Source: Neptunomonas japonica JAMM 1380 (GTDB lineage Bacteria > Pseudomonadota > Gammaproteobacteria > Pseudomonadales > Balneatricaceae). Taken from it: a DNA stretch of 64,000 nucleotides. Under the pieces are notes generated by a model that did no database searches, was not told the DNA's origin, and saw nothing but the letters and a program-made list of their open reading frames with translations. The translations under genes were made by a program, and so were the position numbers. Shown here piece by piece: positions 7,708-61,760 of this stretch. The DNA is taken from NCBI RefSeq assembly GCF_016592555.1, contig NZ_AP014546.1, positions 2,614,501 to 2,678,500 of the forward strand, read 5' to 3'. Within the stretch, counting starts at the first letter, position 1, and every line of letters begins with the position of its first letter.

Positions 7708-8619
7708 TTGATCTCATCACCAACTGAAAATATCGGCCTTGGTGCCTTTTATGCCATAGCAACAGCCTTGGTCATGAGCATTGCTGCCGCTTTGATTAAA
7801 TACACCGCTACACTGATCACTATCGAGATCATTGTGGCAGTACAGTATGCGATTTGCGTGGTATTTATGCTGCCTTGGCTTTTACAAAAGGGCCTTCGAG
7901 GTGTCAAAACAGACAAGCTCGGTTTGCATATTATTCGGGCACTGTGTGGCTGGGCATGTTTTTATACATATTACCTAGCCATCGCACACGTACCACTGGT
8001 TGAAGCAGCCTTACTGCGTAACGCAGCTCCTTTATGCGTTCCCTTTTTCGTATTGATAATACATAAAGTGAGCTTTGCCTGGGTCCGTTGGATTCCTATC
8101 GCTATCGGTTTTTTAGGCATTGGGCTCATCCTAAAACCCGACGGTAACTCTCTGAATATTTGGCACTTAGTAGGCTTTGGCTCTGCCATCACATTGGCAG
8201 GGTCAATTATCACAACGCGCATGCTGACGCGCACTGAGCCAACTAACCGCGTATTGTTTTACTATTTTGCTCTATCCGCAGTGGCCAGTTTGCCTTTAGC
8301 ACTGCTTAATTGGCAACCCATTCCGGCAAAAGCATTATTACCAATGGCACTGATAGGCTTATCAATTTGGTTAACCATGTGGTTATACACACAAGCCTAC
8401 GTTTATGCGAAAGCCTCTATTATCTCTCCGCTGAGCTATACAGGTGTGGTGTTTGCGGGGTTTTGGGGCTGGTATTTTTGGGATCAAATACCGGACTGGC
8501 TATCTTTTGCAGGTGTCGTGCTTGTAGTTGGCGGTGGAATTGGTTCTGTTGTACTAGGGTCACAAGCGGATAAGCGTCATGCGCTATCAAGTAATCTAGT
8601 CAATAAGCAACCACATTAA
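7708..8619 (+). CDS. EamA/DMT-superfamily permease
   Basis: About 303 residues with ten predicted membrane helices arranged as two EamA repeats, the drug/metabolite transporter layout. The opening YAIATALVMSIAAALIKY and the repeat-two region GVVFAGFWGWYFWDQIPDW fit EamA family members of the RhaT/YdcZ-like type; the substrate is unknown. No ATG exists near the natural N-terminus. The TTG at 7708 is preceded by AGGA seven bases upstream and is my preferred start; another TTG in frame lies at 7687. The gene converges on luxS and shares a bidirectional terminator with it. Confidence 0.82.
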   Translation: MISSPTENIGLGAFYAIATALVMSIAAALIKYTATLITIEIIVAVQYAICVVFMLPWLLQKGLRGVKTDKLGLHIIRALCGWACFYTYYLAIAHVPLVEAALLRNAAPLCVPFFVLIIHKVSFAWVRWIPIAIGFLGIGLILKPDGNSLNIWHLVGFGSAITLAGSIITTRMLTRTEPTNRVLFYYFALSAVASLPLALLNWQPIPAKALLPMALIGLSIWLTMWLYTQAYVYAKASIISPLSYTGVVFAGFWGWYFWDQIPDWLSFAGVVLVVGGGIGSVVLGSQADKRHALSSNLVNKQPH

Positions 8620-8640
8620 TCACTAACCTTACACAACAAA

Positions 8641-8680
8641 AAAGCCCGGCTTTATCTTAAAAAACCAGGCTTTATTTTAA
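8641..8680. terminator. Bidirectional terminator between DMT permease and luxS
   Basis: AAAGCCCGG at 8641-8649 and CCAGGCTTT at 8665-8673 form a nine-base stem with one mismatch, flanked by A- and T-rich sequence on both sides. It sits between converging genes. Confidence 0.65.
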
Positions 8681-8694
8681 ACGCTATCACCGAC

Positions 8695-9207
8695 TTAAGA
8701 ATGTGCTTTTAGAAACTCAGGGTCTAGTTTCAATTCATCATTGCTATTGACTGAAATACCACGCGACTTAATATCAGCAGCAATCAACTTAGCTTCATCT
8801 AAAGAGTGCATCGCTTCTGTTCCACACTGATATTCGTTTAGCTCTGGAATATCACTCTGAACTTGAACTTTTTCTACATCATCCATGGCTGCCAACCAAG
8901 CATCACCTACTTGCTTCTCGTCAGGCTGGCCAATTAAGCTCATATAAAAACCAGTACGACATCCCATTGGGGAGATATCAATAATTTCTACATTATCGCC
9001 ATTAAGGTGGTCACGCATAAAGCCTGCAAAAAGATGCTCCAAGGTATGAATCCCACGCTCACTGAGAATCTCTTTATTTGGCAAGCAAAAACGCAAATCA
9101 AACACAGTGATGGTATCACCGCTCGGCGTTTGCATTGTTTTAGCTACCCGTACAGCCGGAGCGTGCATACGAGTATGGTCAACAGTAAAGCTATCAAGCA
9201 ATGGCAT
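8695..9207 (-). CDS. luxS: S-ribosylhomocysteine lyase LuxS
   Basis: A 170-residue LuxS, standard family length. The metal ligands are present: His54 and His58 in HTLEH, and Cys128 in YQCGTEAMH. Glu57 and the catalytic Cys83 ([11 protein letters not shown]) are also present. The enzyme cleaves S-ribosylhomocysteine to homocysteine and DPD, the precursor of autoinducer-2, in the activated methyl cycle. It is monocistronic, with no methionine-cycle gene next to it, so whether AI-2 is used for signalling cannot be judged here. Confidence 0.97.
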
Positions 9208-9367
9208 GAACTTTCCTCAAAAAACGCTATTAGTCACTCACAATGAAACAATTATCCCAATGGAATGACTGTTTAATCAACTTATTTAATTAACTTAAAA
9301 CAACATCTCGCATCACAAAAAATAGAACTAGTCTTTTGTGACACATATTTTCAAGCTTAGAAAGTCA

Positions 9368-10861
9368 TTACGAAGAACAACTAAGGCTGATACCACCAGC
9401 CCACTCAGGCGGCTGCCCAGCATAACGAGCGTACTCATCCTTCGCATCAAAAGGGTATCGGACCACGCTCTGCAAGGTGTTTACCAAACGATAATCTCCA
9501 TTGTTAGCCTCACGTATCGCCTCTTCAAGCATATAGCTACGTAATAGATAACATGGGTTTACACTACGCATCTGTTGCTGGCGATGGGTAAAACCTGTGC
9601 CTTCCTGCTCAGTACGCTGTGTATAAGCCAGCAGCCAGTCAGTCGCCGCTACAGGGTCACTAAAATGACTCAAGCACTGCTGTAGTGTTACATCATTATC
9701 AGGTTGTAAGTCACATAGATCACGTAAGAATCGATTAAGATCAATACGCTGTACGGTTGCTAAGCGAATGAACTGGTCAATCAACGCCTCATCTTCTTCT
9801 TGTTCACTCAACCAGCCTAAACGTAGACGCATTTGTTGCGTGTACGCTTTTAAATACAGGTCTTTGTATCCATCTAAAACAGCAACGAGTTCATCACGCT
9901 TAACTAGGGGTAACAAGGCTTGTGCCAAGCAAGATAAATTCCACAGCATAATATCTGGTTGGCGTTTAAAGGCGTATCGGCCCTCATAATCAGTATGGTT
10001 ACTGACAAAATCCGGTTGATACTGATCCATAAATACATAGGGGCCATAATCAAAAGTCTCACCCAAGATAGACATGTTATCGGTATTCATAACGCCATGA
10101 ACAAAACCGTACGCTTGCCACTTGGCAACCATCAGAATTGACCGGTCACGAATCTCTTTAAACATGCCAAGGTAAGCTGAGGCTGAATCATCAGCCTGCT
10201 TTTTACATTCAGGGAAGTAACGATCCAAACAATAGTCCGCTAACGTTTTAAGACTGTCATGCTGTTGGGTGTAGTAAAAGTGCTCAAAATGCCCAAAACG
10301 AATATGACTTTGGGTAACACGCAATACGTTAGCGCAAGGTTCCATCCCTTCACGCATGGTGTACTCTTCGCTACCGACAAGACACAGCGCTTGTGTTGTG
10401 GGAATACCCAGCCCCTGCATTGCAGCACTAATCAAATATTCACGGATACTTGAACGCAACACTGCACGACCGTCGCCAAAACGAGAGTAAGCGGTTTTAC
10501 CTGCGCCTTTAAGATGCAGATCCCAACGCTCACCTTTGCTGTTGAGCACCTCGCCTAATAACAAGCCACGACCATCACCTAAGTTTGGATTATATTGGCC
10601 AAACTGGTGCCCCCCATACTTCATCGCGAGAGGCTCACTGCCCTGTAAAACATCACCGCCACCAAAGAAACGCGCTAAATCAAATGGCTGTACTGAACAC
10701 GAGTCTAAGTCCAGTATTGTGGCTACATCAGGATTAAAACTAATGAGATGCGCGTTCTTTAATCCGCTAGGATTTACGCGATGATAGAAATTATCAGGAA
10801 AATCAAGATAAGCATTCTCCAGTGTTAATTCGCTTATTGTTTTTAACATGCCTCGCTTCAT
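9368..10861 (-). CDS. selO: SelO/YdiU protein adenylyltransferase
   Basis: About 497 residues of the SelO pseudokinase family, which transfers AMP rather than phosphate to protein hydroxyls. Visible motifs are MKYGGHQFGQYNPNLGDGRG (nucleotide binding, inverted ATP orientation), HLKGAGKTAYSRFGDGRAVL, and the catalytic-loop/metal residues in NTDNMSILGETFDYGP. The protein ends in Cys-Ser-Ser; this Cys occupies the place of selenocysteine in some eukaryotic SelO proteins and of a regulatory disulfide in E. coli YdiU. The frame is open to 10912, but the ATG at 10861 has an AAGG Shine-Dalgarno and leaves MKRGMLKTISELTLENAYL, close to relatives. Monocistronic. Confidence 0.93.
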   Translation of the reverse strand: MKRGMLKTISELTLENAYLDFPDNFYHRVNPSGLKNAHLISFNPDVATILDLDSCSVQPFDLARFFGGGDVLQGSEPLAMKYGGHQFGQYNPNLGDGRGLLLGEVLNSKGERWDLHLKGAGKTAYSRFGDGRAVLRSSIREYLISAAMQGLGIPTTQALCLVGSEEYTMREGMEPCANVLRVTQSHIRFGHFEHFYYTQQHDSLKTLADYCLDRYFPECKKQADDSASAYLGMFKEIRDRSILMVAKWQAYGFVHGVMNTDNMSILGETFDYGPYVFMDQYQPDFVSNHTDYEGRYAFKRQPDIMLWNLSCLAQALLPLVKRDELVAVLDGYKDLYLKAYTQQMRLRLGWLSEQEEDEALIDQFIRLATVQRIDLNRFLRDLCDLQPDNDVTLQQCLSHFSDPVAATDWLLAYTQRTEQEGTGFTHRQQQMRSVNPCYLLRSYMLEEAIREANNGDYRLVNTLQSVVRYPFDAKDEYARYAGQPPEWAGGISLSCSS

Positions 10862-53742: not shown

Positions 53743-53820
53743 AGCTGTCCTTTGATCAAAGTAAATTTTGTAAATGATAGTTGAATATTCTGATGCCTGA
53801 CGCAATGCTCAGTTAGCTAC

Positions 53821-54234
53821 TTACTCACCACCTTCAAAATGCGCAAAGACTTCGGGCCCCGTCATATTTTGAGTTTCATTTTTAAAATCGTAATAGTCGG
53901 GTTTTTCATCGATGAATATTTGATGAGTTAGTTTGTAGGTGTCTTCGCTGGACAGTAAGCCAACAGGAAGGTGGTACTGGTTATTCGGCTTCAGATAGTA
54001 AAACAGGTGCGTCCCGCATTTACCGCAAAATCCCCTTTCAGCCCATTCTGATGATGGATACCTAACAACACTTGTTTCATCTGAAATTTTTACCGAATCA
54101 GCGCAGTCAATGGCTAACATCGGGCCACCCGACCAATTTCTGCACATACTGCAATGACAAGCTGCTAATTCGCTACTAGCGTACTCTACTTCCAATTCAA
54201 CAGAGCCACACAAGCACTTACCTTTACCCTTCAT
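53821..54234 (-). CDS. GFA (CENP-V-like) zinc-binding protein
   Basis: A 137-residue GFA-fold protein. The zinc ligands are spread over GKCLCGSVELEVEYASSELAACHCSMCRNWSGG near residues 5-37, with FCGKCGTHLFYYL near 68-80. Such proteins bind zinc and include glutathione-dependent formaldehyde-activating enzymes, but most are of unknown function. It lies just outside the IS element at the end of the cassette array. GFA-like genes are common cassette cargo, but no attC is evident after this gene. Confidence 0.85.
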   Translation of the reverse strand: MKGKGKCLCGSVELEVEYASSELAACHCSMCRNWSGGPMLAIDCADSVKISDETSVVRYPSSEWAERGFCGKCGTHLFYYLKPNNQYHLPVGLLSSEDTYKLTHQIFIDEKPDYYDFKNETQNMTGPEVFAHFEGGE

Positions 54235-54378
54235 AGATCCTCCGATTTATGTAACGTACGTACAACTCAATATCAGCTAGACATAATGACTCCCACGAGG
54301 TGCTGACCTCCATTTTCGTGGGTTAGCTGTAAGCCAGAGCCATACTGTATCTGTTACCAATACACGCTGGAGGTCAGC

Positions 54379-55529
54379 ATGATTAACAGTAGCATAATTT
54401 TTATTGGCTTAGACACTCACAAAGAATTTGTGGAGGTCGCCTATATTGAAGATGATCGCAACGCTAAGGTCACTCATTTAGGTCAGGTTCCTAACAGCAA
54501 ACTGTCTATTAAAAAAATGGTGCGCCAATTTCAATCTAAATACCCTAAAGACACACTTCATTTTGTTTATGAAGCCGGCCCCTGCGGTTACTGGGTCTAT
54601 CGATTACTCACGAGTCTCGGCCACCCTTGTTATGTGGTGGCACCCTCGCTTATTCCCAAGAAGCCGGGTGAACGGATTAAAACAGATAAGCGTGATGCGA
54701 TGAAGCTCGCTCAGCTCCTACGTTCTGGGGATGATCCTATTTATGTGCCCGAACCCGAAGATGAAGCAATACGTGATTTATCCCGGGCACGCGAAACCGC
54801 GATGAAGGACCTTAAAGATGCTAAATACCAACTCAAAGCGTTATTACTGCGTAACAATATCAAACCGACAGTCACAGATAATTGGTCGCAAAAACATCTG
54901 CGTTGGTTAACAGAATTAGTGTTGCCCTATCCCAGCCAACAGATTGTTCTGCAAGAGTACATACAGACAGTCAATGAGCGAGTTAAACGCTTAGAGCGAC
55001 TCGATAATGAGTTGATTCATCATGTAAAAACTGGCGCTATTACCCCGTTGTTAAAGCGGTACAAACAATGCGAGGGGTTCGGTTATTAGTGGCGGTTGGA
55101 GTCATTGCCGAACTAGGAGACCTCACCCGTTTTGATCATCCCCGTAAACTCATGAGCTACCTTGGTTTAGTGCCTAGCGAACATTCCAGTGGCGGGCATA
55201 AACGCCAAGACAATATTACTAAATGCGGGAATGGACGAGCCAGGCGTTTGTTGATTGAAGGCGCTCATAGTTACCACTATAGCGCGAACATATCGACGGA
55301 ACTACAAAAGCGGCAAGAGTCGCTGAGTAAAGAAATCGTTGATATAGGTTGGCAAGCACAGTTACGTTTATGTAGACGCTACCAGCGATTGATGAAACGA
55401 GGTAAACACTACAATGTCGTGGTCACGGCCATTGCGCGAGAGATGATTGCATATATCTGGGTTATTGCCAGAGAAGCCGTGCTCTCACCGGTTAACCCAA
55501 GTAATCGTTTATCACGGGTGCCTGCATAA
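54379..55529 (+). pseudogene. Frameshifted IS110-family transposase
   Basis: The first part (54379-55089) begins IIFIGLDTHKEFVEVAY with the RuvC-like DEDD domain; it includes PSLIPKKPGERIKTDKRDA near residues 88-106 and ends abruptly in QCEGFGY. The second part (55068-55529) begins MRGVRLLVAVGVIAELGDLTRF and holds GLVPSEHSSGGHKRQ, the serine-containing C-terminal domain. The two frames overlap by 22 bases. The junction sits where relatives read through as a continuous LQAMRGV-like segment, so one base was lost at about 55064-55070. There is no slippery heptamer, so this is decay rather than programmed frameshifting. Confidence 0.8.
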
Positions 55530-55838
55530 TGATCAGTTTTGAGTTAGTGCATCGGATCGGGCCACGGCAGTGGCATAAGCTCCGACGGCGTTAGGCAGGC
55601 AACTACGTGAGTCGTTGATCCTCGAACATAGACTGAAGATCGGTGCCACGACGCCTCCTCATTCAAGAAAGTAGTAAGGTAGGCGCTGCTCATTGCAGAA
55701 TGAGTAATCCACGAATACCAGCATGAAAACCGACGACATTACCGGCCTCATTCGATTTGCTAACTCATCCTATTTTGAGAAAAAGGCTTTAAATAAAAAG
55801 CAGATATTAGTGTGGGTGAACTTGACAGTGGGAGTCAT
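55530..55838 (+). other. IS1 right noncoding end, likely bridge RNA region
   Basis: About 310 bases between the transposase remnant and the right subterminal repeat. In IS1111-type elements this side carries the noncoding RNA that guides target choice (bridge RNA). No structure or conservation test was possible from the sequence alone, so this is inference from family knowledge. Confidence 0.45.
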
Positions 55839-55841
55839 ACC

Positions 55842-55938
55842 AACGCCTCGTTAAGAGGCGAATAATATGTTGGCTAAAATAAGCGACGCAGGAGCAAAAG
55901 CCAACTGTTATTTGTCCTGCTTTAACGACTTGTTAGGC
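55842..55938 (-). repeat. attC A, interrupted at its 3' core by IS element 1
   Basis: On the minus strand this reads GCCTAAC (55938-55932) at its 5' core and ends with GTT at 55844-55842 next to the IS. The stem arms pair: AACAAGTCGTTAA with TTAACGAGGCGTT. The variable top carries an inverted repeat, GTTGGCT/AGCCAAC. The middle is nearly identical to attC B (shared TAAAATAAGCGACG and GGAGCAAAA on the plus strand). The usual trailing RRRY of the 3' core is replaced by IS sequence. Confidence 0.78.
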
Positions 55939-55965
55939 TTTTGTAAAACACCTAGCCTGATTGGT

Positions 55966-56247
55966 TTAGTTGCTTACCTTATAAAAAGAAAACAACAAAA
56001 AGACTAGAAGATAGCATACAAAAAAGGTTAAAAGCTCTTGAGTATATGAAAAGACATTAAGCAGAGCACTACCCCGATGACCATTAGGTTTCCCCATAGT
56101 TGATAGTGCTGAGTAAGCAAAGTAAAAATATAAAGTAGCGATAATTGTTGAAACACCAGCACCAATATATAAATATTTGAATGTAAGAAGAAAAGAGCCT
56201 ACGAGAATCACTAATGGTATTATTATAAAAATAAAAACAATTATCAT
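55966..56247 (-). CDS. Cassette-encoded small membrane protein
   Basis: A 93-residue protein beginning MIIVFIFIIIPLVILVGSFL with three hydrophobic segments. The ATG at 56247 lies 31 bases after the GTTAGGC core of attC B, as expected for a cassette gene, and the stop is 28 bases before attC A. The larger open frame upstream reads through attC B and is not genuine. No family recognised; membrane location is clear, function unknown. Confidence 0.6.
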   Translation of the reverse strand: MIIVFIFIIIPLVILVGSFLLTFKYLYIGAGVSTIIATLYFYFAYSALSTMGKPNGHRGSALLNVFSYTQELLTFFVCYLLVFLLFSFYKVSN

Positions 56248-56277
56248 GTGCCAACCTATCCTTGGTAAAATAAAAAA

Positions 56278-56371
56278 GCCTAACGCCCAATTAACAGGCA
56301 AAAAATAGTTGGTTAAAATAAGCGACGAAGGAGCAAAAACCAACTGTTTTTTGTCCTTGTTGAATTGCTTG
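56278..56371 (-). repeat. attC B, split by IS element 2 (main part)
   Basis: On the minus strand the 3' core reads GTTAGGC (56284-56278). The body shares its central inverted repeat (GTTGGTT/AACCAAC) and the TAAAATAAGCGACG segment with attC A. On the plus strand it ends TTGAATTGCTTG at 56371, where the IS begins. The missing TGTTAGGGC continues at 57955 on the other side of the IS. Joined, the site matches attC E in form. Confidence 0.82.
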
Positions 56372-56450
56372 ATACTTATTGAGCCTTCTCCCCCAGCCAC
56401 CGCAGTCGCGATAAGCTGGAAGGCAACCAAACCAAAAAAGGAGAAGACCC

Positions 56451-57494
56451 ATGAATTTCTACAATACCACTCATCTCCATTATTGTGGAATCGATTTACA
56501 TGCCCGATCTCTTTACGTCTGTATCATTGACCAAGAGGGTAAAACGCTGCTGCATAAAGAGATAGCCGCCAACCCCGAAACACTTTACCAGCTGATTCAA
56601 CCCTATCTTGACGACCTCGTTATAGGTGTCGAATGTATGCATTGCTGGTATTGGCTGGCCGACTTTTGTGAAGATCACGGTATTCACTTTATTCTGGGTC
56701 ATGCGTTATATATGAAAGCCATACATGGCGGTAAAACCAAGAATGATCGGATCGATTCTTACAAAATTGCCAAATTAATGCGGGGCGGTAACTTTCCGTT
56801 AGCTTATGTATATCCACGAGCGATGCGGGCTACACGTGATTTACTAAGACGACGCACACATATTGTTCGCCATGGCGCTGACCTAAAAGCCCATATCGTG
56901 AATACGACGAGCCAATACAACCTACCACCGAATAAAGTTAACTTGAAAAATGTGTGTGCGCGTGAACAACTCAAATCGACGTTTGAGAATCCTGAAGCAC
57001 AACGCAACATCGATTTAGACCTCAATATACTGGAATGCTATCACCGCGAACTCAGCAAGCTCGAATGGCATCTGGAACAACAGGCTAAACATCATAACCC
57101 GGTCTGTTTCACCTTACTCAGAAGCATACCGGGTGTAGGCCGTATTTTGGCGCTAACCATCTTGTATGAGATTGGTGAGATTCAACGCTTTGAGTCGGTA
57201 CAAAACTTTGCGTCGTACTCTCGACTGGTAAAATGCAAAGCCGAGTCTGCGGGAAAAACCTATGGTACGCAGGGTAATAAGATAGGTAATGCGCATTTAA
57301 AATGGGCTTTCTCTGAAGCCGCCGTTCTCTTTTTACGCGGTAACCCAGACGCTCAAAAATACTTACAACGGCTCCAGAAACGGATGAGTAAAGCCAAAGC
57401 CTTATCGGCACTAGCCCATAAACTTGGGAGTGCGGTGTATTTTATGCTGAAGCAGGAGAAAGTCTTCGATGAGCATCGGTTTTTAGTGGGTTAG
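56451..57494 (+). CDS. IS110-family transposase, intact
   Basis: A 347-residue DEDD transposase. The RuvC-like N-terminal domain starts YCGIDLHARSLYVCIID, with a second acidic position in VIGVECMHCWYW near residue 60 and KNDRIDSYKIAKLMRG near 97-112. The C-terminal Transposase_20 domain has LLRSIPGVGRILALTILYEIGEI near 222-245 and KCAESAGKT-like Ser-containing region. It has a GGAGAAG ribosome site. IS110 enzymes move DNA through a guide (bridge) RNA with no classic terminal repeats. It sits in an attC site, as expected for attC-targeting members. Confidence 0.93.
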   Translation: MNFYNTTHLHYCGIDLHARSLYVCIIDQEGKTLLHKEIAANPETLYQLIQPYLDDLVIGVECMHCWYWLADFCEDHGIHFILGHALYMKAIHGGKTKNDRIDSYKIAKLMRGGNFPLAYVYPRAMRATRDLLRRRTHIVRHGADLKAHIVNTTSQYNLPPNKVNLKNVCAREQLKSTFENPEAQRNIDLDLNILECYHRELSKLEWHLEQQAKHHNPVCFTLLRSIPGVGRILALTILYEIGEIQRFESVQNFASYSRLVKCKAESAGKTYGTQGNKIGNAHLKWAFSEAAVLFLRGNPDAQKYLQRLQKRMSKAKALSALAHKLGSAVYFMLKQEKVFDEHRFLVG

Positions 57495-57951
57495 TCACGC
57501 AACAAGGTGAGCTGAACGTCTAACTGGATCGCACCGGAGAGTGCTGAGTATCTACGTGTGTTAACTGATGCTCGACATCTAAAAAGATACTCTACTCCTA
57601 CTCATGAAGCTCCTTTGCCTTGATTAGACACCTTGTTGGCGTGCATTAGTGTCATTAGCAAATGCGCTTACACCTGAGCTGAGCCTGAAACTAACTGGAG
57701 TTACAGCCCGTCTTTTGAATAGGACAGCCACAGGTTAACCGATGAATGTCTAGTGCCCCTGAATTGCTAAAGGACTGGTAATCAGGCAGCGGTAAACGCC
57801 GCAATAAGAGAGCCTCTATATGTGTTTGCTGTAAGTGTATTTAACAGCCGACAAAGACAGATGAAGTGAACGGTCTTGCTAATGGTTTTATAATTGGCCA
57901 CTAACGCGGCCGATAAGAACTACTTCGACCTATTTACTTGAGAAGGCTCAT
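57495..57951 (+). other. IS2 right noncoding end, likely bridge RNA region
   Basis: About 457 bases between the transposase stop and the right subterminal repeat, longer than needed for a terminus. I see no reading frame of note. IS1111-type elements carry their bridge RNA on this side; a copy specific for an attC-like target would be expected. Structure prediction would be decisive. Confidence 0.45.
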
Positions 57952-57954
57952 ATG

Positions 57955-57962
57955 TGTTAGGG
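57955..57962 (-). repeat. attC B, short 5' core fragment beyond IS element 2
   Basis: The plus strand TGTTAGGG at 57955-57962 is the 5' core CCCTAAC(A) of the cassette's attC on the minus strand. It overlaps the stop codon of the AbiTii gene, as in the neighbouring cassette (59736-59742). The remainder of the attC is on the other side of the IS. Confidence 0.75.
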
Positions 57963-58850
57963 CACAATTGCCGCCAACGCAGGTAAAAACGGCGCTACAA
58001 CAGGCCCGTAGACTTGAAAATGATCTGATAATACCGACATAAATTTATTGTAATTTTCTTTAAAGCCAACACTCCCTTGAGTGTCTCTCATTTCTTCAAC
58101 TGCACCAACAATTTCGTCTTTAGACTCTTTTGAATCATTTACTTGCACAAGTGCATGCAGTAGTTCATTTAATACTTCATTGTGTTCATTATTTATCGCG
58201 TGCTGTTTTACATTGGTACTACCCGTTGCAAGATTCTGAACGTTACCAGAGATATGCATGTGAAAAATCTGTTGAACTTTATCTTCTGCCACAGGCTTTG
58301 AATTAAGTGGAGCATCTCCAGCTGCAGGGTCTTCTGATTCTATTTCTAACACAAAGTTTAATATCCTATTTCTAATTACATCGAGCACACCAACAAGTGC
58401 ATTTACAGGGATAACTTTCCACGCTTGCATGCAGTTATAGCCTTGATACATTTTAGTACCAAAGTGTGCGGTAACATTAGCAGGCCAAGGCTCTTGGACT
58501 GTACCCCCATCTGAATCATTTATTAGAGATTCAAGAGAAGATATAGGTTGCACCATATAGGTGGTATAAAGGTTTTCTCGATATTCTTTAGGTATGCAGT
58601 TACTTGGTATTTCAGCATTGTTAATTGCGGCACCAAAACCACCTGAGAAATGACCTTTACAGCTAACCGACATAATCCTGTACTCAGGCATATCCTTTAC
58701 ATCAGCGTAACCATTTAATTCAGAATCAACCCAAGATTTAAACTCTGAACTTCCTAACCTTGCAGCTAGTATCTTACACTTTCTAAGTAATGTACCAATT
58801 GACTCATTTGCATCAACAGCCGAATCCTGAATTTCTCTCAAAAGTGACAT
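57957..58850 (-). CDS. AbiTii-domain protein (cassette gene)
   Basis: A 297-residue protein. Residues about 1-60 hold the AbiTii signature MSLLREIQDSAVDANESIGTLLRKC, LAARLGSSEFKSWVDSELNGYA, then PEYRIMSV. A helix IRNRILNFVLEIE marks the end of the domain near residue 170. The C-terminal part holds SGNVQNLATGSTN, a repeat-like Asn/Gly stretch, and a hydrophobic end (VVAPFLPALAAIVP). AbiTii is linked to abortive phage infection, so a defence role is likely but not proven. The gene starts 15 bases after the attC D core GTTAGGG and stops inside the 5' core of the next attC. Confidence 0.8.
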   Translation of the reverse strand: MSLLREIQDSAVDANESIGTLLRKCKILAARLGSSEFKSWVDSELNGYADVKDMPEYRIMSVSCKGHFSGGFGAAINNAEIPSNCIPKEYRENLYTTYMVQPISSLESLINDSDGGTVQEPWPANVTAHFGTKMYQGYNCMQAWKVIPVNALVGVLDVIRNRILNFVLEIESEDPAAGDAPLNSKPVAEDKVQQIFHMHISGNVQNLATGSTNVKQHAINNEHNEVLNELLHALVQVNDSKESKDEIVGAVEEMRDTQGSVGFKENYNKFMSVLSDHFQVYGPVVAPFLPALAAIVP

Positions 58851-58864
58851 ACTTACTCCATGTG

Positions 58865-58925
58865 CCCTAACGTTTAAGCTAACCGGCCGCGCTTTAGCGC
58901 GGTCGGGTTTAGTGAATTGTTATGC
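58865..58925 (-). repeat. attC D (61 bp)
   Basis: On the minus strand: 5' core GCATAAC (58925-58919), then a long imperfect hairpin with the arms CCGACCGCGC and GCGCGGCCGG around TAAA, and 3' core GTTAGGG (58871-58865). It closely resembles the 60-base attC of aadA1-type cassettes in layout (AACAATTCAC near the start). It ends the protease cassette and precedes the AbiTii gene. Confidence 0.88.
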
Positions 58926-58928
58926 AAC

Positions 58929-59633
58929 TTATTGCAAATAATAATCTAAAGACCTTATACACTTCAGTAGATTACAGCCGTAAATTTCATTTTTTTCGGT
59001 GCAGCCTCCACTTACAAGGCTTACAACTTTACCGTCCTCTCCAATAATTGGAGCGCCACTACACCCCTGAAACATTTTATGTCCAGGATGATCTTCTGGT
59101 AATTTAAAAACTAGCATGTCATTTTCCACTCTATCGAACTTCAATCCATGATAAATGTGTTGAGTGGCTTCAAAAGCGTTTTGATCAGGAATAGCTGTTG
59201 GGAGGATATCTCCAGAAAAACCATAATATATATCTTTGTTTGGCTCGCTAATGTCATCCATCGCAAATATAGGCCTTTCTCTGGACTCTAAAATTTCACC
59301 TTTCCAATTAATATTTTGATAGGAACTTGTAAAATCTAGGCGAACCGGGTGAAAAGAAAACTCCACATTTTCTATTTCTGTTTTATCTGAAGAATAGTCA
59401 GCAAAATAACTAAACTCATTTAAGAATAGGGCCTCAAATTTTTGTACTTCTTCGTTGTATTTTATTTGAGCACTCCAGTTAGATGAATTTTGAGTAACAT
59501 GGAATACGGTTAATAAAAAGCGTTGGCCTTTCAAATCAAGAAGACAGCCAGAACCGATACCGCAAGGCATGTCGTTATCTTCATGTTTTCTGAGTTGAAC
59601 GCTAGAGTATTTTATTAGATCTTGCCAGTTCAT
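58929..59633 (-). CDS. Trypsin-like serine protease domain protein (cassette gene)
   Basis: A 234-residue protein with a chymotrypsin-type fold. The catalytic His45 is in FLLTVFHVTQ, and the nucleophile Ser192 is in QGCSGAPIIG, followed by a Gly/Ser-rich SLVSGGC segment that fits the S1 pocket. The catalytic Asp is not clear and could be missing. There is no signal peptide, so it is intracellular. Such proteases occur as effectors in some anti-phage systems. It sits between attC E and attC D and starts about 10 bases after the attC E core. Confidence 0.75.
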   Translation of the reverse strand: MNWQDLIKYSSVQLRKHEDNDMPCGIGSGCLLDLKGQRFLLTVFHVTQNSSNWSAQIKYNEEVQKFEALFLNEFSYFADYSSDKTEIENVEFSFHPVRLDFTSSYQNINWKGEILESRERPIFAMDDISEPNKDIYYGFSGDILPTAIPDQNAFEATQHIYHGLKFDRVENDMLVFKLPEDHPGHKMFQGCSGAPIIGEDGKVVSLVSGGCTEKNEIYGCNLLKCIRSLDYYLQ

Positions 59634-59642
59634 AATTTTGGT

Positions 59643-59742
59643 GCATAACGCCGCATTAAGCGGACTAAAATTGTTGGTTATAATGTGAAGCGAAGCGGAA
59701 TCTAACCAACTGTTTTAGTTCCGTTTAAATGCCTTGTTAGGG
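59643..59742 (-). repeat. attC E (100 bp)
   Basis: On the minus strand: 5' core CCCTAAC (59742-59736), stem arms AACAAGGCATTTAAACGGAACT and a top with GTTGGTTAG/CTAACCAAC-like pairing, and 3' core GTTATGC (59649-59643). The top half is like attC A and B (CAACTGTT, GTTGGTTA). It separates the nuclease-like cassette from the protease cassette. Confidence 0.85.
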
Positions 59743-60393
59743 CCTATTACCTGGCTTATTATCTCTTTTTTTTCTTGGCTTAGGTGTCGGAGTATATTCA
59801 AGTCCATTTACATCAACAGTAAGCCCGCTTAATTTACTGCTAGCTACGCCTTTAATAAAGTCAGAACGCCTGTCTCCATGCTTACAAGATAAGACTAATT
59901 CAAGGAAATAATCATCAAGCCTCATTCTTGTTTTTCCCCAAGTTTTGGTGCTTGGAGTACCTACTCTTATAGTTGGTACCGCACCTGCTATCTGAGGAGC
60001 TTCTAGTACTATATAATCGTTTGTATAGCGAGACATCTTCTCACATTGCTCACGAAGTCGTGTTATTTCTGTTTTTGGCATCCCATCAACAGTATCATTT
60101 TTGGCTTGTGATAATATGGCTTTGCTAATTGGTTCATCTACATTTTCACTTTTAAAAACAATTGCGAAATCTGCACCATATAAGCTTTCAGCACTCCCTG
60201 GTCCACGGTCAGCTACAATAGTAGACGAAAAATCTATAGAGCCATTACCATCACCAAAATCCAACACTCCATCTAAGCGTCCAATAAGCGCATCAACATA
60301 TGCACTTTCATGTGCATATCTAACCCTATTTAATCGACTACAAGCATCTGAAAAATATTGTTTAACTCTTTTTTCTACTTCTGCATTATCCAT
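59737..60393 (-). CDS. PD-(D/E)XK-like nuclease candidate (cassette gene)
   Basis: A 218-residue soluble protein. The motif arrangement Glu69 ... Asp75 in YGADFAIVF ... Gln96-x-Lys98 in LSQAKND fits a PD-(D/E)XK-type nuclease core with Gln in place of Glu, as in some Mrr/restriction-like families. The C-terminus is basic (KPRKKRDNKPGNRP), suited to nucleic acid binding. I know no named family for it. The stop TAA at 59737-59739 lies inside the attC E core. It starts 15 bases after the attC F core. Confidence 0.6.
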   Translation of the reverse strand: MDNAEVEKRVKQYFSDACSRLNRVRYAHESAYVDALIGRLDGVLDFGDGNGSIDFSSTIVADRGPGSAESLYGADFAIVFKSENVDEPISKAILSQAKNDTVDGMPKTEITRLREQCEKMSRYTNDYIVLEAPQIAGAVPTIRVGTPSTKTWGKTRMRLDDYFLELVLSCKHGDRRSDFIKGVASSKLSGLTVDVNGLEYTPTPKPRKKRDNKPGNRP

Positions 60394-60407
60394 AATATTC
60401 CATTGAG

Positions 60408-60457
60408 CCCTAACAGCCCGTTTAAGAGGCCGTTGGCCTCATAACAGTTATTAGAGG
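60408..60457 (-). repeat. attC F (short, probable)
   Basis: On the minus strand the 3' core GTTAGGG (60414-60408) is preceded by a six-base hairpin GAGGCC/GGCCTC around AAC and arms CTAATAAC and TTAAACGGGC. It is shorter and less regular than the other sites. It marks the upstream border of the nuclease-like cassette and the left end, in reading direction, of the recognisable array. Confidence 0.6.
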
Positions 60458-60740
60458 GCCGGCACGAAAAAATGAACTATTTAAAAAAAGAGAATTAACG
60501 TTATGATTTGAAGACATTTTTAGTTTCCTTGTCATAAAGCATAAATCCATTAGTGTTGCCATTGGCCTCATAACATATGAAAAAAGGGCAAACATTGCCA
60601 TACTGTATATAAAAACAGTATCAACTCTCATACTTTCAGGCACTCATTTGCTGTAAACAGGCCGTGATATTCGTACCACTCAAATCTATACGCATGTTAT
60701 CGGTCAGCATTTTGCGGGCACTTTCAGCCCGCTCGATGAA
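60458..60740. other. Noncoding region upstream of the array with a repeat and a hairpin
   Basis: No convincing gene. GCCATTGGCCTCATAACA at 60558-60575 repeats the attC F segment GCCGTTGGCCTCATAACA at 60429-60446 with one change, so a second decayed attC-like site may lie here. A hairpin GCGGGC/GCCCGC at 60714-60719 and 60727-60732 sits just downstream of the oxidoreductase stop; it lacks a T-run. No integron integrase gene is present. Confidence 0.5.
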
Positions 60741-61760
60741 TTAGCCCAATAATGCTTTTGCCAACAGCTCAAAGCTACGCTTTCTTGATTCAAAATCGTG
60801 CGTCACCGTGACTAAACCTATCTCATCTGTTTGCCAATATTCAGAGATTTGCTCAAGCTGGCTGGCGCATTCTTGTGGGGAGCCAAGGGCTACAGAGTTA
60901 ATTAGGCTCTGGTAATAGCTCTGGTCTGATACGGGCAACTGTTTTAACTTGTTTATTGCTTCTTCTGGGCTTAACCAAGGGTTACGCATACCATGGCGAA
61001 AGGCCATGACTTTCCAATAGGCTTGTGGTGCGGCAAGGTAGAGTGCCTCTTCTCGTGTGGGAGCACATAATGCCGAGATGGTAATCATGGTGCGTGGTGT
61101 TCCGTCATGCCCGGATTGTCGATAAGCGTTTTTATATTCATCCATAATCGCGATGGTTTGGTCATCTGGGCTGATAAACAACCCAAGTGACATACTAAAA
61201 CCCATCTGCCCGGCAAAGGCGGCACTGCCACCACTGGTGCCTAGCATCCAGAGCTCTGGGCACGGCTCATCGCTTGGCATCACTTTTAGATCATTAAACG
61301 CATGGTTTGTAGGAAAGTCGCCTCGCAAAAAGCTGCTCAACAGTTGCGTTTGTTCTGCGTAGCGCTCACCGTGTGTTGGCTTATAAGGGTACGCCAGTGC
61401 TTGGCTGGCTATGCCATCTCCGCCGGGGGCTCGGCCAATGCCTAGATCAATCCTTCCTGGGAAGAGTGTTTCTAGCATTCTAAATTGCTCAGCCACCTTG
61501 TAAGGGTTATGGTTAGCCAGCATAACCCCCCCGCTACCCACCCGAATATTTTTGGTAATGCTGGCAATATGGCTGATTAATACTTCAGGGCATGGTCCGG
61601 CAAAACTGTTGCTGTTGTGGTGCTCTGCTAGCCAGTATCGGTGATAGCCTAACTGGTCACACGCTTGTGCTAACTGCGCTGATAGATGCGGGGCGAGCTC
61701 AGGCCCACCTGTCCCAAGCTGTACGGGAGATTGATCTACAACGGTGAGTTTAAAAGTCAT
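60741..61760 (-). CDS. LLM-class flavin-dependent oxidoreductase (luciferase-like)
   Basis: A 339-residue TIM-barrel protein of the bacterial-luciferase-like superfamily. The N-terminal LTVVDQSPVQLG, YHRYWLAEHHNSNSFAGPCPEVLISHIA near residues 39-66 and GSGGVMLANHNPYKVAEQFRMLE near 76-98 are family hallmarks, as is the flavin-binding GIGRAPGGDG. It probably uses FMN or F420-like cofactor with an unknown substrate. It lies just outside the cassette array and heads away from it. Confidence 0.88.
   Translation of the reverse strand: MTFKLTVVDQSPVQLGTGGPELAPHLSAQLAQACDQLGYHRYWLAEHHNSNSFAGPCPEVLISHIASITKNIRVGSGGVMLANHNPYKVAEQFRMLETLFPGRIDLGIGRAPGGDGIASQALAYPYKPTHGERYAEQTQLLSSFLRGDFPTNHAFNDLKVMPSDEPCPELWMLGTSGGSAAFAGQMGFSMSLGLFISPDDQTIAIMDEYKNAYRQSGHDGTPRTMITISALCAPTREEALYLAAPQAYWKVMAFRHGMRNPWLSPEEAINKLKQLPVSDQSYYQSLINSVALGSPQECASQLEQISEYWQTDEIGLVTVTHDFESRKRSFELLAKALLG

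Follow-up and report, generated by a model that had tools for sequence, protein, structure and literature searches.

An eroded chromosomal integron with five gene cassettes, some of them defence-like, in Neptunomonas japonica

Results

Organization of the cassette array

The window analysed here is a 64,000-nucleotide stretch of Neptunomonas japonica JAMM 1380 (positions 2614501-2678500 of contig C1 in genome G000, which comprises 4.1 Mb in one contig). It contains an integron cassette array on the minus strand, extending from 60458 down to 53812, in which five cassettes have the same direction. In order from the head these encode a nuclease-like protein, a protease, an AbiTii-domain protein, a small membrane protein and a GFA-domain protein. 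A preliminary description of this DNA had counted four cassette genes; the count is five, since the GFA-domain gene was concealed behind one of two insertion sequences (ISa and ISb) that interrupt the array. The cassette genes were as follows.

59737-60393, minus strand: cassette 1, putative PD-(D/E)XK nuclease, 218 aa; no Pfam and no PADLOC family
58929-59633, minus strand: cassette 2, serine protease of predicted chymotrypsin fold, 234 aa; identified by Foldseek and PADLOC LmuA
57957-58850, minus strand: cassette 3, AbiTii-domain protein, 297 aa; PF18864 (E = 7.2e-50), PADLOC AbiTii (E = 4.8e-48)
55966-56247, minus strand: cassette 4, small membrane protein, 93 aa; open reading frame shortened to an ATG past the core, the start being chosen by reading
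53821-54234, minus strand: cassette 5, GFA-domain protein, 137 aa; PF04828 (E = 4.8e-17); follows GTTAGCT once the ISa flanks are joined

A cassette that was once circular is expected to fit its own R'' core at its start. The matches between cassette start and own core were 8 nt for the nuclease, 8 nt for the protease, 11 nt for AbiTii and 11 nt for the membrane protein, and the sum for this pairing (38) was the highest of 24 permutations, the runner-up reaching 35. Joining the flanks of ISa produced a GTTAGCT core, and the GFA-domain gene was therefore taken as the fifth cassette. As previously described, two stop codons fell within attC cores (57957 and 59737). The close spacing of cores and gene starts was also upheld, the distance of 10-31 bases being re-measured as 9 to 30 nt after the 7-nt cores. 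Sigma-70 promoter-like sites were not in excess (15, against 16.7 in shuffled sequences). A 154-aa open reading frame for the membrane protein, from a TTG start, was rejected; it ran through attC2 and its matches in other loci were attC centres.

Identification of attC sites

Three covariance models were applied. R1 included sites from the window and was not used as proof; R2 was built from the arms alone of 20 sites at other loci, with window sites excluded; R3 comprised ten full-length sites from loci L045, L046, L011 and L048, most of which had the shared centre and none of which came from the window. Calibration was short and the E-values from these models are rough. The following sites were delimited.

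59643-59742, minus strand: attC4 (end of cassette 1), uninterrupted; R3 E = 1.3e-22, 88 bits
58865-58925, minus strand: attC3 (end of cassette 2), short; R3 with filters off E = 0.0038, 20.5 bits; R2 E = 1.6; cores fit
57954-57963, minus strand: attC2, R'' side; CCCTAAC core with an 11-nt match to the start of cassette 3; severed by ISb
56278-56372, minus strand: attC2, main part; R3 match at 56278-56377, 94 bits, E = 1.7e-24
55842-55938, minus strand: attC1 (end of cassette 4), with ISa interrupting its outer R' core; R3 match at 55838-55938, 85 bits, E = 9.3e-22
53812-53818, minus strand: AGCTAAC, at the end of the array; probably what is left of R'' from the attC of cassette 5, which is otherwise lost; matches the start of cassette 5

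Five attC sites on the minus strand had been proposed; four of these were recovered by R3, with E-values from 1.7e-24 to 0.0038, while the fifth proved to be an attI. The near-identical centres noted for three sites were borne out. When R3 was run over the 64 kb with filters off, the next match, apart from opposite-strand echoes of the four sites, had E = 0.56. R2 gave weaker matches in a search over 386 kb (55839-55938, E = 0.0063; half of attC4, E = 0.029; 58865-58925, E = 1.6), and with filters off it returned fragments only and did not list 58865-58925. Thus, attC3 was the weakest site, yet its cores fit the cassettes on both sides. No attC was found near 53812-53818 when the array end was searched with R2.

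When folded as single-stranded DNA (plus strand), the five stretches had z-scores between -2.4 and -3.6 relative to shuffled sequences, which is consistent with attC and non-specific. A strict script requiring exact consensus cores found no sites in the window, and an Rfam scan of the window found no family at threshold. Chance resemblance to attC was ruled out by the covariance models together with the pairing of cores.

Head of the array and loss of the integrase

Three features were delimited upstream of cassette 1.

60411-60458 (site near 60405-60459), minus strand: attI; the first cassette begins at G 60414; homologue in locus L015
60603-60618, no strand assigned: LexA-box-like CTGTATATAAAAACAG, CTG-N10-CAG, of the former integrase promoter
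60621-60743, plus strand: intI fossil; promoter-side sequence joined to the intI 3' end, with a further small deletion

The stretch 60411-60458 was rejected as an attC, being listed by none of R1, R2 and R3 and having an attI homologue in L015. It was 79% identical over 48 nt to that homologue, which precedes, by about 190 nt, an intact intI belonging to another genus of the same family; by this comparison, the attI of a complete integron appears to be retained. A CTG-N10-CAG motif occurred close to the expected place in 7 of 12 upstream stretches compared. Residues 289-315 of TIGR02249 were matched at 60663-60743 (E = 2.9e-5), with 25 bits against a cut-off of 265; most of intI was gone and its 3' end additionally deleted, and the functional intI of a complete integron is lacking. 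Therefore, the absence of a working integrase, as first described, was confirmed, but the statement that the window held no intI was not, given the LexA box and the intI 3' end. Within the attI segment a direct repeat, GCC(G/A)TTGGCCTCATAACA, was observed at 60429-60446 and 60558-60575 (129 bp apart); these are possibly integrase-binding repeats.

Related genomes were informative about the loss. In G001, the neighbouring luciferase-like monooxygenase (LLM) gene was 95% identical and was preceded by the same promoter-to-3'-end fusion of intI, the C-terminal stub being longer there. The intI next to the LLM gene in G007 retained residues 15-157 with a stop, followed by other pieces. Because intI remains lie beside the same LLM gene in both genomes, an integron was present here before these species parted. 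The integrase was lost by at least two routes, the fusion being common to G000 and G001; since this deletion also occurs in one related species, it probably predates Neptunomonas japonica. Matches of 47 and 50 nt running past the LLM gene in G006 and G004 were too short to count, and may be the last trace of the same intI.

The alternative that the cluster arose by insertion of cassettes at a secondary site, and was never a full integron here, could draw on the absence of a working intI nearby and on the other intI-less arrays of the same genome. It is already contradicted by the attI, LexA box and intI stub that precede the cassettes and by the intI remains at the same position in two other species, and can be given hardly any credence. 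The evidence supports an eroded complete integron, with its attI, LexA box and intI stub retained, rather than a mere cluster of cassettes, and we regard the anatomy and history of the locus as very probably those of a chromosomal integron undergoing decay.

Insertion sequences within attC cores

Both insertion sequences were of IS110/IS1111 type.

56373-57953, plus strand: ISb, about 1581 bp; 11-bp subterminal repeats TGAGCCTTCTC; transposase 56451-57494
54279-55841, plus strand: ISa, about 1563 bp; 11-bp subterminal repeats ATGACTCCCAC; transposase in two frames, 54379-55089 and 55068-55529

ISb splits attC2 at the R'' side, while ISa cuts the R' core of attC1. In G005 (L044), a relative of ISb (67% identical DNA) occupied the corresponding position in a different attC. 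The ends were placed using the 7-bp and 3-bp outer extensions given in PMC11187229, where IS1111-attC insertion sequences are discussed; they are uncertain by a few bases, and this placement leaves the ISb site about four bases longer than its sister sites. Elsewhere in the genome, short fragments derived from the ISb 3' end were observed near other attC (2598223-2598356 and 1954402-1954479), and pieces of the ISa end beside a lone attC (L066:4535-4754, at about 2.7346 Mb).

Cassette-encoded proteins

The nuclease candidate had residues E29, D75 and Q96xK98 invariant in 23 aligned sequences, providing the acidic residues and D/E/QxK motif of PD-(D/E)XK enzymes. Its predicted fold produced weak matches only, to nucleases that we take to be members of the PD-(D/E)XK superfamily; the NCBIfam model for MzaD, a PD-(D/E)XK protein, reached only E = 0.096, one Foldseek search gave nothing useful and there were no matches to solved-structure sequences at E up to 1. 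The earlier label of PD-(D/E)XK-like nuclease is plausible. The gene was found in 1 of 369 genomes of the class (own genome counted). Among six loci with relatives, four had attC nearby: the gene was flanked by attC at either end in L048, L049 and L052 and at a single end in L050. No attC was found beside the relatives in L051 and L053, the latter locus ending within the gene. In L048, from a Colwellia metagenome-assembled genome, the nuclease was preceded by an OLD/GajA/AriA-like gene (8038-9894) lying between two attC and ending inside attC. That the nuclease family travels as a cassette is well shown.

For the protease, a structure predicted with a pLDDT (predicted local distance difference test) score of 91 appeared to have the S1 (chymotrypsin-like) fold; the best Foldseek match in the pdb had E = 9.2e-7, and 310 chains were matched at E up to 0.001. 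A GCSGAP motif was present, H45 and S192 were invariant in 26 aligned sequences, and E91, the candidate acid of the triad, was found in 90% or more. Accordingly the predicted fold and the motif agree with the initial label of trypsin-like protease, to which Pfam lends no support (best E = 0.22, under the cut-off). The profile matched 41 solved-structure sequences, of which 40 were flavivirus-type viral proteases aligned over 33-51 residues near the serine; the other was an unrelated protein (E = 0.093). The PADLOC model for LmuA (PDLC03855), a protein family in which protease domains can occur, matched residues 2-207 (E = 1.5e-6), and each of the 26 aligned members was matched at E = 0.01 or better. 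Both the protease and the nuclease functions are putative.

The protease occurred in 4 of 293 genomes of the order and 1 of 369 of the class (own genome counted), and it is less well shown than the nuclease to travel as a cassette. Its relative in L062 had a weak attC just past the gene (R2 E = 0.46; absent from the R3 list). In L064, an R3 attC (9387-9477, E = 1.3e-4) separated the fragments of a broken gene copy, and a second site was found at 10400-10465 (R3 E = 0.08, R2 E = 0.016). In L065, an attC was 1.9 kb distant (R2 E = 0.041).

The AbiTii domain, as first assigned, was firmly established: PF18864 scored 170 bits against a cut-off of 27.6 over residues 2-193. The C-terminal segment of about 100 residues had no Pfam match above cut-off, and the best match to solved-structure sequences had E = 0.4. 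At E = 1e-40 the gene was present in 2 of 293 genomes of the order (own genome counted). The relative in L063 had an attC 136 nt upstream (R2 E = 1e-4), and cassette status in other loci is again less well shown than for the nuclease. AbiTii fusions with HEPN have been described (PMC3710099). Literature searched on AbiTii, and judged by titles and the openings of abstracts, provided no link to integrons, which leaves the absence of such a link unproven. The small membrane protein had no Pfam match at E = 0.05.

One system or separate cassettes

The preliminary description had suggested that nuclease, protease and AbiTii might act as one anti-phage module, and had asked whether they recur together. 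Ten loci around relatives (L048-L053 and L062-L065), of 5 to 21 kb each, were examined by tblastn (E = 1e-5), and a second member of the trio was found in none. Since each gene is also its own cassette, the single module is unsupported. A three-gene defence system that chanced to sit in an integron would account for genes that are adjacent, co-directional and defence-like, but each has cores of its own on either side, the ten loci lacked partners and the Colwellia nuclease follows the OLD/GajA-like gene instead; we consider it very unlikely. An origin of the trio from phages or plasmids was also rejected. There was no match in 50,697 phage records; among 72,556 plasmid records the nuclease and protease had one distant match each (32% and 27% identity) and AbiTii had matches in 116, all plasmid matches being under 60% identity.

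The search of defence models, as had been proposed, gave a clear match for AbiTii and a weak one, to LmuA, for the protease, but no PADLOC family was found for the nuclease. On balance we favour the view that the three genes are separate defences. Three observations weigh against the interpretation offered here: a pooled R3 run with default settings, listing matches up to E = 1, lacked attC3 (58865-58925); no link to defence was found for two of the five cassettes, GFA and membrane (GFA lying outside the PADLOC scan); and the LmuA match is weak, the defence roles being read from sequence. The last two would fit cassettes that are not defence genes at all, the trio having other roles and the array being a random sample of cassettes. 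This is possible but doubtful, given that AbiTii is a PADLOC defence family and that expression screens find anti-phage activity in a minority of the cassettes examined (at least 16 of 179 from Vibrio cholerae and 9 of 57 tested from V. parahaemolyticus, reviewed in PMC12409362).

Other integron remains in the genome

An intact intI was identified at 3254481-3255422 of the genome (431 bits against the cut-off of 265), about 580 kb from the window array, while a second, at 2485512-2485909, had an internal deletion. The attI segment of the window (about 205 bp) had two copies of 94% identity, at 2.600 and 1.334 Mb, and a profile search of the genome found no intI match near either. An identical first cassette of 1114 bp (a 316-aa gene plus attC) occurred in L069:4890-6003 (about 2.599 Mb) and L070:3837-4950 (about 1.581 Mb), both arrays being without intI; the 2.600-Mb array has the attI type of the window and the 1.58-Mb array has another. 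The identity began at TGTTAGCC and ended at GCGTTA, which are core sites. This is the pattern expected from insertion by an integrase, duplication by another route being possible. Supply of integrase in trans from the intact intI is plausible. More tentatively, and as a possibility we would not favour at present, the integrase-less attI arrays might be satellite platforms fed in trans by one integrase, which would deal defence cassettes to several unlinked first positions, the nuclease cassette founding a new one-gene family of phage defence. Whether several attI arrays are fed by a single integrase could be tested directly in this genome.

The segment from attI to LexA box was multi-copy, occurring at 60410-60619 of the window, at 2599997-2600206 and 1334161-1334363 of the same genome, and in relatives (G001 C8:329-533 and C4:257431-257633; G007 C70:294-497). 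In the five copies outside the window, homology ended within the LexA box or one base beyond it. At L069:6200-6320, the window-type attI was followed by a partial attI of the other type and a LexA-like stretch, being traces of two tandem integron heads. A cassette of a second integron (L011:6174-6704) encoded a SLATT effector-like protein with two transmembrane segments (PADLOC, E = 8.9e-14; SLATT_4, E = 4e-6). Five contig ends of G001 (L075, L078, L035, L041 and L036) had two kinds of insertion sequence end inside the LexA box, representing at least three insertions; the end in L035 encoded an IS1595 zinc ribbon (PF12760, E = 2.7e-13). Do insertion sequences prefer integrase promoters? No paper in the literature searched joined IS1595, LexA and integrons.

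Discussion

The following history would account for the locus. A chromosomal integron with attI, LexA box and intI decayed, intI being cut down to its 3' end, and the cores of attC2 and attC1 were each hit by an attC-targeting insertion sequence of IS1111 type. An integrase supplied in trans could still excise cassettes 1 and 2 and insert new ones at attI, while cassettes 3 to 5 would be frozen. The array would hold single-gene anti-phage cassettes side by side, without a joint system: AbiTii as a probable abortive-infection protein, the protease as an effector that may, by analogy, resemble the protease domain of Lamassu LmuA, and the nuclease as a putative small restriction-like enzyme. Such a locus shows the stepwise death of a chromosomal integron, through a shared intI deletion and insertion sequences in attC cores, with the cassette genes staying open. 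It also points to two small cassette-borne protein families, nuclease-like and protease, that are missing from, or weakly matched by, the defence library searched.

Comparison with known systems

Among the proteins, AbiTii resembles its family through a PF18864 domain far over the cut-off. The protease resembles Lamassu LmuA in its weak match, common to all aligned members, but differs in standing alone at 234 aa; Lamassu combines LmuA with LmuB, and no LmuB was found among the four cassettes scanned. ISa and ISb resemble IS1111-attC elements in their 11-bp subterminal repeats, IS110-type DEDD transposase and landing at one end of an attC, both having subterminal repeats and an attC target; here they differ in that one element lies in R' and the other at R''. 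The Vibrio anti-phage integron libraries (Darracq 2025 and Getz 2025, via PMC12409362) likewise concern single-gene defence-like cassettes in a chromosomal integron, although there are five cassettes here against at least 179 in V. cholerae N16961, and these are known from sequence alone.

With four attC sites and no functional intI nearby, the array corresponds to a cluster of attC sites lacking integron-integrases (CALIN), and CALINs are treated as degraded integrons in PMC9024848 (IntegronFinder). For Xanthomonas, PMC12444791 reports arrays that are stable despite the loss of intI, together with CALINs at other places in the genome; the ilvD-linked integrons described there share with this locus an attC cluster without working intI, a conserved position and independent loss of intI in relatives. 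The locus described here differs in retaining attI and LexA box, in the several intI-less attI copies in the same genome and in its interruption by two insertion sequences. It represents an already known type of system in a good state of preservation, and not a new type.

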